From the NCBI GenBank assembly GCA_022650485.1, contig JALCPP010000002.1:124001-188000 (forward strand): 64,000 bases of DNA. Reading direction: 5' to 3'. Below the pieces are notes generated by a model. The model had not been told where the DNA came from and made no database searches. It saw only the letters and a list, made by a program, of their open reading frames with translations. Positions 32,866-37,837 of this stretch are shown piece by piece. Positions within the stretch are counted from its first letter, which is position 1; every line of letters starts with the position of its first letter. Both the position numbers and the translations under genes were made by a program. The stretch comes from Oscillospiraceae bacterium. Its GTDB lineage: Bacteria; Bacillota; Clostridia; Oscillospirales; Acutalibacteraceae.

Positions 32866-34044
32866 TTACCGCCTGAGATAATCAAGGGTGCCCGCCGTTT
32901 GATCGTTTTGACGGTAAACGCGGGGAACCCGTTTGGACACGCCGCATACCAGTTCGTAGTTGATGGTCCCCAGCTGGGAAGCCAGTTCATCCACCGGCAA
33001 AACGGCACTGCCGTCTCTTCCGAATACCGTCACTTCGTCCCCGGTGCGTATGTCCGGAATTTTCGTCACATCAAGCATCAGCTGGTCCATGCAGACCCGT
33101 CCGCATATTTTTGCCCTTTGCCCGTGAACCAGCATTTGTGCAGACTGAAACAGCGCTCTGGGGTATCCGTCCGCATATCCGATTGGAACGGTCGCAATTT
33201 TCATGTCTTTGTCTGCGGTGAATTTTCGGCCGTAGCTGACGCAGGTTTGGGCAGGAATTGTCTTAACCAGCGCAACAACGCTTTTAAGCTGCATGACGGG
33301 AACCAGCGGGGCGGGATTTTGAATGAGGTCCGACGGCATCAGGCCGTAAAGAATCACGCCGGGGCGCGCCATGTCCAGCTGCATTTCCGGGTAGTCGAAA
33401 ATTGCGGCGGAATTTGCGCAGTGGCGGATGCGGAACCGGATGCCGCGTTGTTCCAGAATATCGATTGCACCGCAGAAATTTTGGTACTGCATCTGTGTGT
33501 AGCCGCGTCCGTTTTCCCCTTCGTCCGCCACTGAGAAATGAGTAAAAATTCCCTCTGGGTCCAGACCGGACAGCGAGCAGATACGCTCGATTTCGTCCAG
33601 AGACTGCATGTCGCGTTCCGGCTGCTGGTACAGAAACCCGATCCGGCTCATTCCGGTGTCCAGTGAAATGTGAACTTTTACCGTGACGCCTGCCTTTACG
33701 GCCTGCTCGTTCAGCTTTGCGCCGTATTCACTGCCGACCAGAGCCTGTGCGATGTTCAGCCGGGCAAGTTCCGCCGCCGCTTCCGGCGGCGTATAGCCCA
33801 GAATCAGGATAGGAAGGGCTGCGCCGGCGCGCCGCAGCTGCCGCGCTTCTTCCAGGTTGGAGACCGCGAACCAGTCCGCGCCGAGTTTTTCATACTGCCG
33901 TGCCAGCCGTTCGGCACCGTGACCGTACGCGTCCGCTTTAACCACACAGCAGACCTTTGTTTCAGGCCGAAGCCTTTTTTTAATTTCTTTATAGTTGTGT
34001 TCGACGGCATCCAGGCTGATCTCAGCCCATGTCCGCCTTAAAAT
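32866..34044 (-). CDS. alr: Alanine racemase with a non-standard start codon
   Basis: This PLP enzyme makes D-alanine for peptidoglycan. The lysine is in VVKADAYGHG, and the second catalytic tyrosine region is in the C-terminal domain (SYGRKF and IGYADGYPR). The conserved N-terminal segment RRTWAEISLDAVEHN is encoded in frame upstream of the lysine, back to a TGA at 34069-34071. No ATG, GTG or TTG lies between that stop and GTG 33945, which would remove the N-terminal strand. ATT 34044 or CTG 34065 are the only plausible starts. I give 34044, with the 5' end uncertain. The stop-to-start gap to purL is short, so the two are probably cotranscribed. Confidence 0.85.
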   Translation of the reverse strand: MLRRTWAEISLDAVEHNYKEIKKRLRPETKVCCVVKADAYGHGAERLARQYEKLGADWFAVSNLEEARQLRRAGAALPILILGYTPPEAAAELARLNIAQALVGSEYGAKLNEQAVKAGVTVKVHISLDTGMSRIGFLYQQPERDMQSLDEIERICSLSGLDPEGIFTHFSVADEGENGRGYTQMQYQNFCGAIDILEQRGIRFRIRHCANSAAIFDYPEMQLDMARPGVILYGLMPSDLIQNPAPLVPVMQLKSVVALVKTIPAQTCVSYGRKFTADKDMKIATVPIGYADGYPRALFQSAQMLVHGQRAKICGRVCMDQLMLDVTKIPDIRTGDEVTVFGRDGSAVLPVDELASQLGTINYELVCGVSKRVPRVYRQNDQTAGTLDYLRR

Positions 34045-34081
34045 GTTTTCCGTTGCAACCGCCAGCTTTCAGTGCGTTGAA

Positions 34082-37000
34082 TTATTTAAAATATTTGACG
34101 CCGGATTCAAACAGCTTCTGGTCTTTTTCACCCGGTACGTTTTTGTAAAGATTTTTTCCCATCCGTTCGGAGTGGCTCATTTTGCCTAGAATCCGACCAT
34201 CCGGACTGGTGATGCCTTCCACCGCGCAGACAGAACCGTTCGGGCTCCATTCGGCGCTGCCGCTCGGGGTTCCGTCCGGGGTGCAGTACTGGGTGGCAAT
34301 CTGCCCGTTTGCAATTAGGGAATCCATCGTTTCTTTGTCTGCAACAAAACGACCTTCTCCGTGGGAAATTGGAACGGTGAATACATCGCCAGCTTTGATG
34401 CCGGAAAGCCACGGCGATTTTACAGAAGTCACGCGGGTGTAGACCATGCGCGAAATATGTCTGCCGATGCTGTTGAATGTCAGGGTGGGAGCATGCTCAG
34501 ACGGGGGTGTAATGTTTCCGTATGGAACAAGTCCCAGTTTAATCAGCGCCTGGAATCCGTTGCAGATGCCGAGCATCAGCCCATCCCTTTCAGTAAGCAG
34601 GTGCTTAACAGACTCTGCCATGTGGGGATTGCGGAAAGCGGTCGCGATAAACTTTCCGGAGCCGTCCGGTTCGTCGCCGCCGGAAAATCCGCCCGGGATC
34701 ATGATGATTTGGGAGCGGGAAATGGCCTGAGCCATGTGGGAAATGCTCTCTTCAATGTCTTCCGGGGTCCGGTTGCGAACCACGAAAACTTCAGGAAGCG
34801 CGCCGGCTTTTTCAAACGCGCGGGCGGTGTCATATTCGCAGTTTGTTCCTGGAAATACAGGAATAAACACGCGTGGTTTCGCGGCTTTGATAGCAGGAGC
34901 CGTCTGATTGCGGTCTGTGAAAAGCGGAACTTCGCGGATTTCAACATTCGGGGCCGCCGTCGGGAAGATCTTATTCAGTGTGCCGTTCCATGCGGCGATG
35001 AGCCGGTCCAGATCAACAGCATGTTCGCCAAGTTCGATCTGCGGTTTCTTTATCGTATGCCCCAGTGTGATAAACGCCAGATCCGATACCGCCGTTTCTT
35101 CGTCAAGCTCTACGACGATCGCACCGGACGATGGAGCGAACAGGCACTGGTGATTCATGACGGTGGGATTGAACCGGAAACCCATTTTATTGCCAAAGCA
35201 CATGCGCGCGACCGCAGCCGCCGTGCCGCCTTCTCTGACCACAGATGCGGAACGCACGCCCTTTTCTTTAATCAGTTTGGTAACGGCGGCGTAATACGTC
35301 TTTAGTTTTCGCCAGTTTGGAAGCAGAGTATCCGGGTCTTCCGGCAGGGGCAGCAGCAGAACACGCGAAGCGGATTTTTGGAATGCCGCGGAAATAGTTT
35401 TGCTCTTTTTGGTCATTGCAACCGCAAAGCTGACCAGTGTGGGGGGGACATGAATGTCTTCAAAGGTTCCGCTCATGCTGTCTTTTCCGCCGATAGCCGG
35501 GATGCCGAGACCGATCTGCGCGGAAATTGCCCCGAGAAGGGCCGCTGTTGGTTTGCCCCAGGTTTTGGGGTCCTCCGTCATGCGTTCAAAGTATTCCTGA
35601 AACGTAAGCCGCGCGGAAAGCGGGTTTGCGCCGACCGCCGCCAGTTTCGACAGGCTTTCCACCACTGCGTAGGCCGCGCCGTGGAACGGGGAAAAGCGCG
35701 AAATGCCCGGAATAAAGCCGTAGCTCATCGCGGTTGCGTCATCACTTTCCCCGGAAACCGGTAGCCCCGCAACCATGGCGTCTTCCGGTGTCAGCTGATA
35801 CGTTCCAGCGAACGGCATCAGAACGGTTTCTGCGCCGATGCTTGCATCGAAACGCTCGGAAAGACCTTTCTGGCCGCAGACTTCCAGCCGGGACAGATTC
35901 TTTTCAAAGGCTTGTTCCAAAGGCAGCTGTGCAAGGCACGGCGGAACTTTTTCCCGGTAATTGTCCTTCGGGTCGACCGCGGAAATCAGTGCATCCGCGT
36001 TTTGGGTCACGCCGTTTGTGTCCAAAAATGAGCGGGCAAGGTCGACGATGCGGTCGCCGCGCCAAGTCATGCACAGACGGGCGTTTTCGGTTACTTGAGC
36101 AACGACGGTTGCAGTCAGGTTTTCCTGTGCCGCCGCCGCAATAAAGGCATTGCAGTCTTTCGGGTCCAGCACGACCGCCATGCGTTCCTGCGATTCTGAA
36201 ATTGCCAGTTCCGTTCCGTCCAGCCCTTCATACTTTTTCGGAACTTTGTCGAGGCTGATCTTCAGTCCTTCCGCCAGTTCGCCGATGGCGACACTCACGC
36301 CGCCTGCGCCGAAATCATTGCAGCGCTTAATCATGTGCGCAACGTTCTGATTGCGGAACAAGCGCTGAATCTTGCGCTCGGTGGGGGGATTTCCCTTTTG
36401 CACTTCCGCTCCGCAGACTTCAATGGACTGTTCCGTGTGTGCTTTGGAAGAACCGGTGGCACCGCCGCAGCCGTCACGCCCGGTTGCGCCGCCAAGCAGG
36501 ACGATTACATCGCCGGGCTTGGGAATGTCGCGAACCACGTTTTCTTTCGGGGAAGCGCCGATGACCGCTCCGATTTCCATGCGCTTTGCCACATAACCCG
36601 GGTCGTACAGTTCTGTTACCTGACCGGTTGCAAGGCCGATCTGGTTGCCGTAGGAGCTGTAACCCTGCGCTGCGCCGGTGGTGATTTTGCGTGTTGGCAG
36701 CTTGCCGTGTTTTGTCTTTTCAAACGGGATGCGAGGGTCGCCTGAACCGGTCACGCGCATGGCCTGATACACATAGGCTCTTCCGGAAAGGGGGTCGCGG
36801 ATTGCACCGCCCAGGCAGGTGGCCGCGCCGCCGAACGGTTCAATTTCCGTCGGGTGATTATGGGTTTCGTTTTTAAACTGAACCAGCCATTTCTGCACCT
36901 GCCCGTCCACAGTGACGGGTACTTCGACAGAGCAGGCGTTAATTTCTTCGCTGAGATCCAGGTCTGGAATCAGGCCGCGCTTTCTGAGCAGCTTCATTCC

Positions 37001-37837
37001 GATGACCGCCATGTCCATCAGGGAAACCGGGCGGTCTGTTCTGCCGTAAACCTCATCGCGGGCATGACAGTATGCGGCGAGCGCGTCCTCAATGACCGTA
37101 CTCAAAGCGGACCGTTCTACCGTGATTCGGTTCAGCCGGGTCAGAAATGTGGTGTGGCGGCAGTGATCGCTCCAGTAAGTGTCAATTACGCGCAGTTCCG
37201 TTACGCTTGGGTCCCGTTTCTCCGCGTCGCGAAAATAGTCACGGCAGAACAGAAGGTCCTCTCGGCTCATGGCAAACCCCATGGAACGGTGGTAGTCGGA
37301 AAGCTGCTCCTGATCCCAGGCGGTGAAGCCTTCCACACGGGCGACATTTTCCGGAATGTTTGCTTCGGAGTCGAGTGTTTCCGGTTTGCTCATGGAAGCC
37401 AATCGGCTTTCAACCGGATTAATCAGATAAGTTTCCACTTTAAGAAGGTTTTCCGGCGAAAGACCCTTGACCGCAACGACTTTCGCCGTAGCAACCTGGG
37501 GCCGTTCTCCCTGCGTCAGCAGCTGCACGCACTGGGCGGCGGAATCCGCCCGCTGGTCATACTGCCCCGGCAGGTATTCTGTTGCAAAGGCTTCATAGCC
37601 TTGGGGCAGCGGATAGCTTTCCTCATACACAAGATCCACATTTGGTTCCGAAAGGATTGTATCCCTTGCCGCGGCGTATTCTTTTCCGGAAATTCCGGAA
37701 AGATCGTAGCGGTTAATGATTTTCACATCTTCTACGGTGGTAAGCCCCAGGTTTTCGATCAAATCTGCCCTGAGTTGCTGTGCTTCCCCATCAAACCCCG
37801 GTCGTTTCTCTACAAAAACACGGATGACTTCTGACAT
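34082..37837 (-). CDS. purL: Phosphoribosylformylglycinamidine synthase, single-chain form
   Basis: This 1251-residue purine enzyme combines the FGAM synthetase core with a C-terminal glutaminase. The core shows HNHPTEIEPFGGAATCLGG (about residue 330), the duplicated ATP-binding region and KDSMSGTF. The glutaminase domain has the nucleophile cysteine in LGICNGFQALIKLG near residue 1090, with PGGFSGGDEPDGSG before it. It converts FGAR to FGAM with glutamine and ATP. The long form rather than PurLQS is common in Clostridia. A GGGGG tract precedes ATG 37837. alr follows closely on the same strand. Confidence 0.97.
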   Translation of the reverse strand: MSEVIRVFVEKRPGFDGEAQQLRADLIENLGLTTVEDVKIINRYDLSGISGKEYAAARDTILSEPNVDLVYEESYPLPQGYEAFATEYLPGQYDQRADSAAQCVQLLTQGERPQVATAKVVAVKGLSPENLLKVETYLINPVESRLASMSKPETLDSEANIPENVARVEGFTAWDQEQLSDYHRSMGFAMSREDLLFCRDYFRDAEKRDPSVTELRVIDTYWSDHCRHTTFLTRLNRITVERSALSTVIEDALAAYCHARDEVYGRTDRPVSLMDMAVIGMKLLRKRGLIPDLDLSEEINACSVEVPVTVDGQVQKWLVQFKNETHNHPTEIEPFGGAATCLGGAIRDPLSGRAYVYQAMRVTGSGDPRIPFEKTKHGKLPTRKITTGAAQGYSSYGNQIGLATGQVTELYDPGYVAKRMEIGAVIGASPKENVVRDIPKPGDVIVLLGGATGRDGCGGATGSSKAHTEQSIEVCGAEVQKGNPPTERKIQRLFRNQNVAHMIKRCNDFGAGGVSVAIGELAEGLKISLDKVPKKYEGLDGTELAISESQERMAVVLDPKDCNAFIAAAAQENLTATVVAQVTENARLCMTWRGDRIVDLARSFLDTNGVTQNADALISAVDPKDNYREKVPPCLAQLPLEQAFEKNLSRLEVCGQKGLSERFDASIGAETVLMPFAGTYQLTPEDAMVAGLPVSGESDDATAMSYGFIPGISRFSPFHGAAYAVVESLSKLAAVGANPLSARLTFQEYFERMTEDPKTWGKPTAALLGAISAQIGLGIPAIGGKDSMSGTFEDIHVPPTLVSFAVAMTKKSKTISAAFQKSASRVLLLPLPEDPDTLLPNWRKLKTYYAAVTKLIKEKGVRSASVVREGGTAAAVARMCFGNKMGFRFNPTVMNHQCLFAPSSGAIVVELDEETAVSDLAFITLGHTIKKPQIELGEHAVDLDRLIAAWNGTLNKIFPTAAPNVEIREVPLFTDRNQTAPAIKAAKPRVFIPVFPGTNCEYDTARAFEKAGALPEVFVVRNRTPEDIEESISHMAQAISRSQIIMIPGGFSGGDEPDGSGKFIATAFRNPHMAESVKHLLTERDGLMLGICNGFQALIKLGLVPYGNITPPSEHAPTLTFNSIGRHISRMVYTRVTSVKSPWLSGIKAGDVFTVPISHGEGRFVADKETMDSLIANGQIATQYCTPDGTPSGSAEWSPNGSVCAVEGITSPDGRILGKMSHSERMGKNLYKNVPGEKDQKLFESGVKYFK

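Follow-up and report, generated by a model that had tools for sequence, protein, structure and literature searches.

We describe an alr gene whose conserved N-terminal region is preceded by no ATG, GTG or TTG start, an absence that is real. We lean, with somewhat better than even confidence, toward the view that this intact and needed gene is translated from an ACG codon (34053-34051) by fMet-tRNA. The gene lies in a window of 64,000 nucleotides (the whole stretch of DNA that was analysed; G000:C2:124001-188000) taken from a 2.55-Mb draft genome of 18 contigs, hereafter G000, for which the closest named genome among those found is Caproicibacter fermentans EA1 (L003). Three members of the genus were compared with it, G001 (assembled as a single contig), G002 and G003; G001 and C. 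fermentans were the congeners whose alr was used in alignments, and G002, which is 56% complete, gave no alr match. The gene and its immediate surroundings are as follows.

32866 to 34068, minus strand: open frame of alr, beginning immediately past the in-frame TGA and ending with the stop codon at 32866-32868, recognized by TIGR00492 and Pfam.
33943 to 33945, minus strand: GTG, the first standard in-frame start (AAGG, -3.8 kcal/mol); starting here would cost the protein its conserved N-terminus as far as the motif of the catalytic lysine.
34082 to 37837, minus strand: the upstream gene, of 1251 amino acids and aligned in both congeners, which we take to be purL-like.

The alr frame opens after the TGA at 34071-34069 and stays open for 400 codons to its stop; its first 41 codons, read on the minus strand as KLAVATENILRRTWAEISLDAVEHNYKEIKKRLRPETKVCC, contain no ATG, GTG or TTG, and the first in-frame standard start is GTG 33945-33943, the codon for the first V of VVKADAYGHG. 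The first-pass annotation had claimed both this gap of 41 codons between TGA and VVKADAYGHG and its identity as the Alr N-terminus, and both claims were borne out: TIGR00492 scored 379.9 bits against a cut-off of 168, covered model positions 1-367 of 369 and aligned its position 1 at frame residue 11, such that by the curated cut-off the predicted product is a full-length member of the Alr family. Pfam Ala_racemase_N and Ala_racemase_C (173.4 bits) both matched, and all matched solved sequences (49/49) aligned starting from frame residue 7 to 17. The translation contains both VVKADAYGHG, presumably the PLP-lysine motif, and VSYG, which we take to carry the second catalytic Tyr in the C-terminal domain. 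Because the TAA of the upstream gene comes just before alr, the two genes likely share one mRNA.

By our own arithmetic, 41 sense codons would lack a standard start with a probability of about 0.13 under random expectation; judged by chance such a stretch is not rare, and judged against homologues it is. Among 36 alr loci surveyed for starts (own gene included, with L003 and L012 being one C. fermentans gene), a subset given that 55 genomes gave an alr match, only our gene and L037 had no standard start at or near the N-terminus, and L037 is truncated by its contig end. The first-pass annotation had held that relatives with an ATG at this site would count against a rare start, and its two checks, this one and that for a missing base, gave a mixed outcome: relatives do use ATG, GTG or TTG nearby, so the lack is specific to G000.

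Around the N-terminus, six further elements bear on where translation may begin.

34051 to 34053, minus strand: ACG, the proposed start (protein MENILRRTWAEISLDAVEHN...), on the basis of the start column, the genus alignment and the Shine-Dalgarno (SD) spacing.
34054 to 34056, minus strand: GCA; the congeners have one more codon between GCA and ACG, absent here.
34058 to 34063, minus strand: GGCGGT, a Shine-Dalgarno-like element (-6.0 kcal/mol) that matches the C. fermentans element and spacing.
34042 to 34044, minus strand: ATT, a candidate of the first-pass annotation, 14 nt after GGCGG.
34063 to 34065, minus strand: CTG, its second candidate, without SD pairing upstream.
34018 to 34020, minus strand: ATC, a weak rival that would remove TWAE, with AAGGCGG about 11 nt upstream (-6.6 kcal/mol).

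ATT and CTG had been correctly located in the first-pass annotation, and ACG was absent from its candidates; as first choice, both give way to ACG, which better fits the commonest start column of the relatives and the SD spacing. We aligned 31 relatives outside the genus on the TWAE tryptophan (L037, which has no such column, was dropped, L009 was unused, and in L008 and L035 the tryptophan is replaced by Y and R), revealing ATG or TTG exactly 8 codons before that tryptophan in 21 of the 31; the same column is ACG in G000, G001 and C. fermentans. The remaining 10 of 31 start in other columns, so the ACG column is the commonest and not a universal one. Within the genus the codons read GTT GCA ACG GAA AAC ATT TTA in G000, ATC GCT ATG ACG GAT GAT ATT CTG in G001 and GTC GGT GTG ACG GAA AAT ATT TTG in C. 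fermentans, and codon alignment places an extra codon before ACG that is ATG in G001, GTG in C. fermentans and missing from G000. The arrangement GGCGG-5 nt-ACG in G000 equals GGCGG-5 nt-GTG in C. fermentans. With spacings counted on the sequence and pairing energies computed against an assumed 16S tail, the SD of alr (GGCGGT) reached -6.0 kcal/mol, that of the G001 alr ATG -3.8 kcal/mol and that of infC -12.9 kcal/mol. Against ACG, its SD is mediocre, and ATC 34020 scores higher at -6.6 kcal/mol, at about 11 nt. Lying both in the start column of the relatives and in SD register, ACG looks as a non-standard start should, and by these comparisons it is the best candidate start, with ATT second.

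If so, GGCGGT would position the 30S subunit at ACG, and fMet-tRNA (anticodon CAU) would pair with it at positions 1 and 3 across a central C.A mismatch, giving a full-length Alr product beginning MENILRRTWAEI, probably at low efficiency; in E. coli, ACG is a very weak start. Most likely the family's ordinary ATG became ACG, which would have taken a T-to-C change in the genus ancestor or earlier; the use of ACG, its efficiency and this order of events are what we infer. Nearly saturated dS values hint at G000 as the basal branch, and if G000 is basal, an ancestral ACG with later gain of ATG or GTG needs two events versus three for a loss here.

The N-terminal segment bears marks of having been translated. 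Against the congeners, dN/dS was about 0.02 to 0.05 for the N-terminal 36 codons and 0.11 to 0.12 for the whole of alr, with high dS. Lineage-specific changes numbered 6 synonymous and 1 non-synonymous in this segment and 47 and 26 in the rest of the gene, a difference in ratio that is non-significant (p = 0.41). These values argue that the segment has been translated for much of the lineage's history, and they are unable to date the loss of the standard start. A PF01168 search of G000 returned alr and one shorter frame, presumably YggS-like, leaving a single full alr in the genome. A PF01063 search of G000 found one enzyme, a branched-chain aminotransferase, and no D-amino-acid transaminase (dat); each congener (G001, G003) has two, the second of which (L054, L055) is best matched by D-amino-acid transaminase models, as scored on 214-aa fragments and below the model cut-off. 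D-Ala-D-Ala ligase is present in G000. Since neither dat nor a second alr was found in G000, alr looks like its only D-alanine route and should be expressed; D-alanine would then have to come from Alr, an enzyme that is probably indispensable.

A non-standard start in a housekeeping gene is an arrangement also seen in this genus in infC (IF3), which reads GGAGG, 9 nt, ATT AGC AAC in G000, G001 and G003 (L051, L052, L053), with an in-frame GTG upstream of its SD. From this SD and from infC elsewhere we infer that infC starts at ATT in the genus, and a non-standard start would therefore be tolerated here. The comparison with infC drawn by the first-pass annotation is thus apt for the genus; its further suggestion, that a rare start serves tight control, found no backing, as nothing at this alr speaks for regulation. 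In E. coli, infC is autoregulated by IF3. The two genes also differ in that the infC ATT has a near-perfect SD, whereas the alr ACG has a modest one and no known loop.

Beyond alr, start codons compared across the genus yielded one further case and one lead.

G000:C2:249412-250158, minus strand, outside the window: TrmB-type regulator (PF01978; L158, L077:1512-2258).
G000:C2:270118-270990, plus strand: ABC permease (BPD_transp_1; L078:2218-3090), with GGAGG, 7 nt, ACG and without an SD-supported standard start.

At the start of the TrmB-type regulator stands ACG in G000 (ACG GAC GCA) and G001 (ACG GAA TCG) and ATG in five other homologues, namely the two G002 copies (ATG GAT GTA, ATG GAC GCC), G003 (ATG GAT TCC), G028 (ATG GAT CTG) and G040 (ATG GAT AAA); the homologue loci are L159-L163 and L165, L160 being one with ATG. 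All seven align gap-free before the start codon; the G040 alignment has a single gap a few codons further on, and that of G003 starts two codons before the ACG/ATG codon. An eighth homologue, L164, is a weak match (32% identity) that lacks a start in that column. In the G001 gene, no ATG, GTG or TTG occurs in frame until codon 61, which lies within the conserved domain; the G000 gene does have a TTG in frame, six codons ahead of ACG, with little SD pairing. Between G000 and G001 this gene has a dN/dS of 0.08 and a dS of 1.22, and G000 is more distant from G001 than G002 and G003 are, so its ACG arose twice or was reverted.

Screening 108 conserved genes on contig C2 flagged two G000 genes, alr and one that retains a congener-shared ATG 11 codons further in, and two on the congener side, one with a shared ATG further in and the other the TrmB-type regulator. 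Wider screens covered 368 and up to 510 genes, against G001 and part of G003: the 368-pair screen gave 18 flags in both directions, and in the 510-gene screen, which made 949 comparisons, a standard start stood opposite a standard start in 892, and 21 of the 949 rows had no SD-supported standard start nearby. The TrmB gene was flagged in the 108- and 368-gene screens and unflagged in the 510-gene screen. Remaining flagged rows were judged to be internal sites, alignment errors at the ends, antisense frames or cases with close standard starts. Three more rows of the 510-gene screen pair ACG with ATG; in two of them an ATG follows within one or two codons, and the third lies 19 codons inside the alignment. 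For the ABC permease, G001 has an ATG one codon on from the G000 ACG, an in-frame TTG eight codons after the ACG yields a plausible protein, and, G001 apart, no match covering most of the protein exceeded 33% identity in the nine genomes searched, making it an ambiguous case and a lead only. These screens of up to 510 genes found no further clear ACG start, and by our reading of the rows the probable real cases are alr, the TrmB gene and perhaps the ABC permease; ACG starts, if real, are rare in this genome.

A broader proposal, that ACG is a stable inherited start of the Caproicibacter lineage (genus-ancestral in alr, the sole start here, and arisen or persisting in the TrmB-type regulator of two species), is tentative and in our estimate rather doubtful. 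Were it true, the ribosomes or initiation factors of the genus would tolerate the middle-position mismatch; alternatively, some step such as C-to-U mRNA editing would make AUG, although editing of that kind is not known to us from bacteria of this group. An altered initiator tRNA was considered as a cause and dropped. The sequence GGGCTCATAACCC occurs once in G001, once in G003 and nowhere in G000, and the G001 initiator tRNA finds no full match in the G000 assembly; that assembly has 44 tRNA matches (43 named by ARAGORN) and is likewise missing tRNA-Ile(GAT) and tRNA-Ala(TGC). Because these two are missing as well, we draw nothing from the lack of the initiator tRNA and read it as an assembly gap, the missing tRNAs probably being collapsed repeats or gaps.

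Other explanations of the alr start have to be weighed against ACG. Translation from ATT 34044-34042, giving MLRRTWAEI, would follow the example of infC, whose ATT starts are established (PMC5472188) and whose start in this genus is an SD-supported ATT; the codon is in frame and retains the conserved core. We nevertheless consider it unlikely. The alr ATT is 14 nt from GGCGG, against a spacing of 9 nt from GGAGG and a pairing energy of -12.9 kcal/mol for the infC ATT. Outside the genus, only L004 and L035 among the 31 relatives have a standard start in the ATT column; L004 has another in the ACG column, and for L035 no other is listed. In G001 and C. fermentans this ATT simply encodes an Ile downstream of the start. 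Similarly unlikely, to the same degree, is an error of sequence or assembly, the true sequence having the congeners' extra ATG or GTG codon and not GGCGGTTGCAACGG. Only one codon at the start differs from both congeners, and the assembly is a draft of 18 contigs without the initiator tRNA and two other tRNAs; yet 34 frames chosen from the window (one of which overlies tRNAs) each match a congener along most of their length, and the ACG itself is common to all three genomes. No single-base loss, which the first-pass annotation had asked about, explains the lack, the difference being one of a whole codon. Sequencing error alone is also hard to credit because two unrelated genes show ACG in the start column of their relatives, one of them in two separate assemblies. 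A recent loss of the start that put alr of this strain on course to become a pseudogene, with D-alanine coming from outside or from another enzyme, strikes us as more improbable still: start loss is a usual first step in gene decay and external D-alanine is possible, but the 400 codons hold no stops or frameshifts, constraint is strong (dN/dS about 0.11), and the search found neither dat nor a second alr. By its frame and its constraint, alr does not look like a pseudogene.

Moving the start elsewhere in the frame fares worse. GTG 33945-33943, the first standard start in frame, has a weak SD (AAGG, -3.8 kcal/mol) and is presumably what annotation restricted to ATG, GTG and TTG would pick, for a protein of 359 amino acids; it would, however, remove the part before the catalytic lysine from which the solved sequences align, a conserved segment, and the 34 other loci with a complete N-terminus (33 genes) all have an earlier standard start, so we give this reading very little credence. 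We give just as little to a different in-frame codon such as CTG 34065-34063 or ATC 34020-34018. CTG, which both congeners also carry, is known to initiate weakly (at 0.86% of AUG, a figure cited in PMC11497404), but lacks SD pairing upstream; ATC has the strongest SD score among the codons tested (-6.6 kcal/mol), but the SD is distant at about 11 nt and TWAE would be lost. Least probable of all is initiation at the out-of-frame TTG (34058), which opens a six-codon mini-frame visible in the sequence (34038-34058, minus strand; MQRKTF, stop TAA 34040-34038 overlapping ATT TTA), followed by a restart or slip into alr. That TTG comes immediately after GGCGG and is absent from the sequences of both congeners, and no classical slippery heptamer was seen on this route.

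A start at ACG would have few parallels. Such starts are almost never seen in bacteria, and by title, the matches listed in our search of the ACG-start literature concern plant organelles, viruses, yeast, insects, human and animal genes and, in one case, synthetic cells, with no chromosomal bacterial gene among them. In Streptomyces, sigR starts at GTC and is repressed by IF3 (PMC5472188); like alr here it is a single chromosomal gene whose rare start automatic annotation overlooked, and it differs in being a sigma factor with a GTC start and demonstrated regulation, where alr encodes a metabolic enzyme and has a candidate ACG. Plant organelle genes likewise have ACG where ATG is expected, but in fern organelles C-to-U editing is described as creating start codons (PMC12548569). 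E. coli carbohydrate regulators with GTG or TTG starts illustrate that the choice of start codon can set protein level (PMC11445065), though GTG and TTG are standard in bacteria and ACG is not. As gene prediction relies on ATG, GTG and TTG (PMC5472188), genes like this alr will be shortened or called broken. If alr does start at ACG, a bacterium in nature can sustain a housekeeping function despite a mismatch at the middle position of the start codon, and alr and the TrmB-type regulator would together form a natural series of standard versus ACG starts among the orthologues of one genus, suited to measuring how ACG starts arise and are tolerated, and whether they respond to IF3 or to D-alanine demand.

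Two minor observations concern the local sequence around the alr start. The mean unpaired probability there was 0.60 in G000, 0.56 in G001 and 0.39 in C. fermentans, values that were unused in the argument above. Positions 34052-34059, where the start codon is missing, form a perfect 8-nt palindrome, GTTGCAAC, which may be chance.
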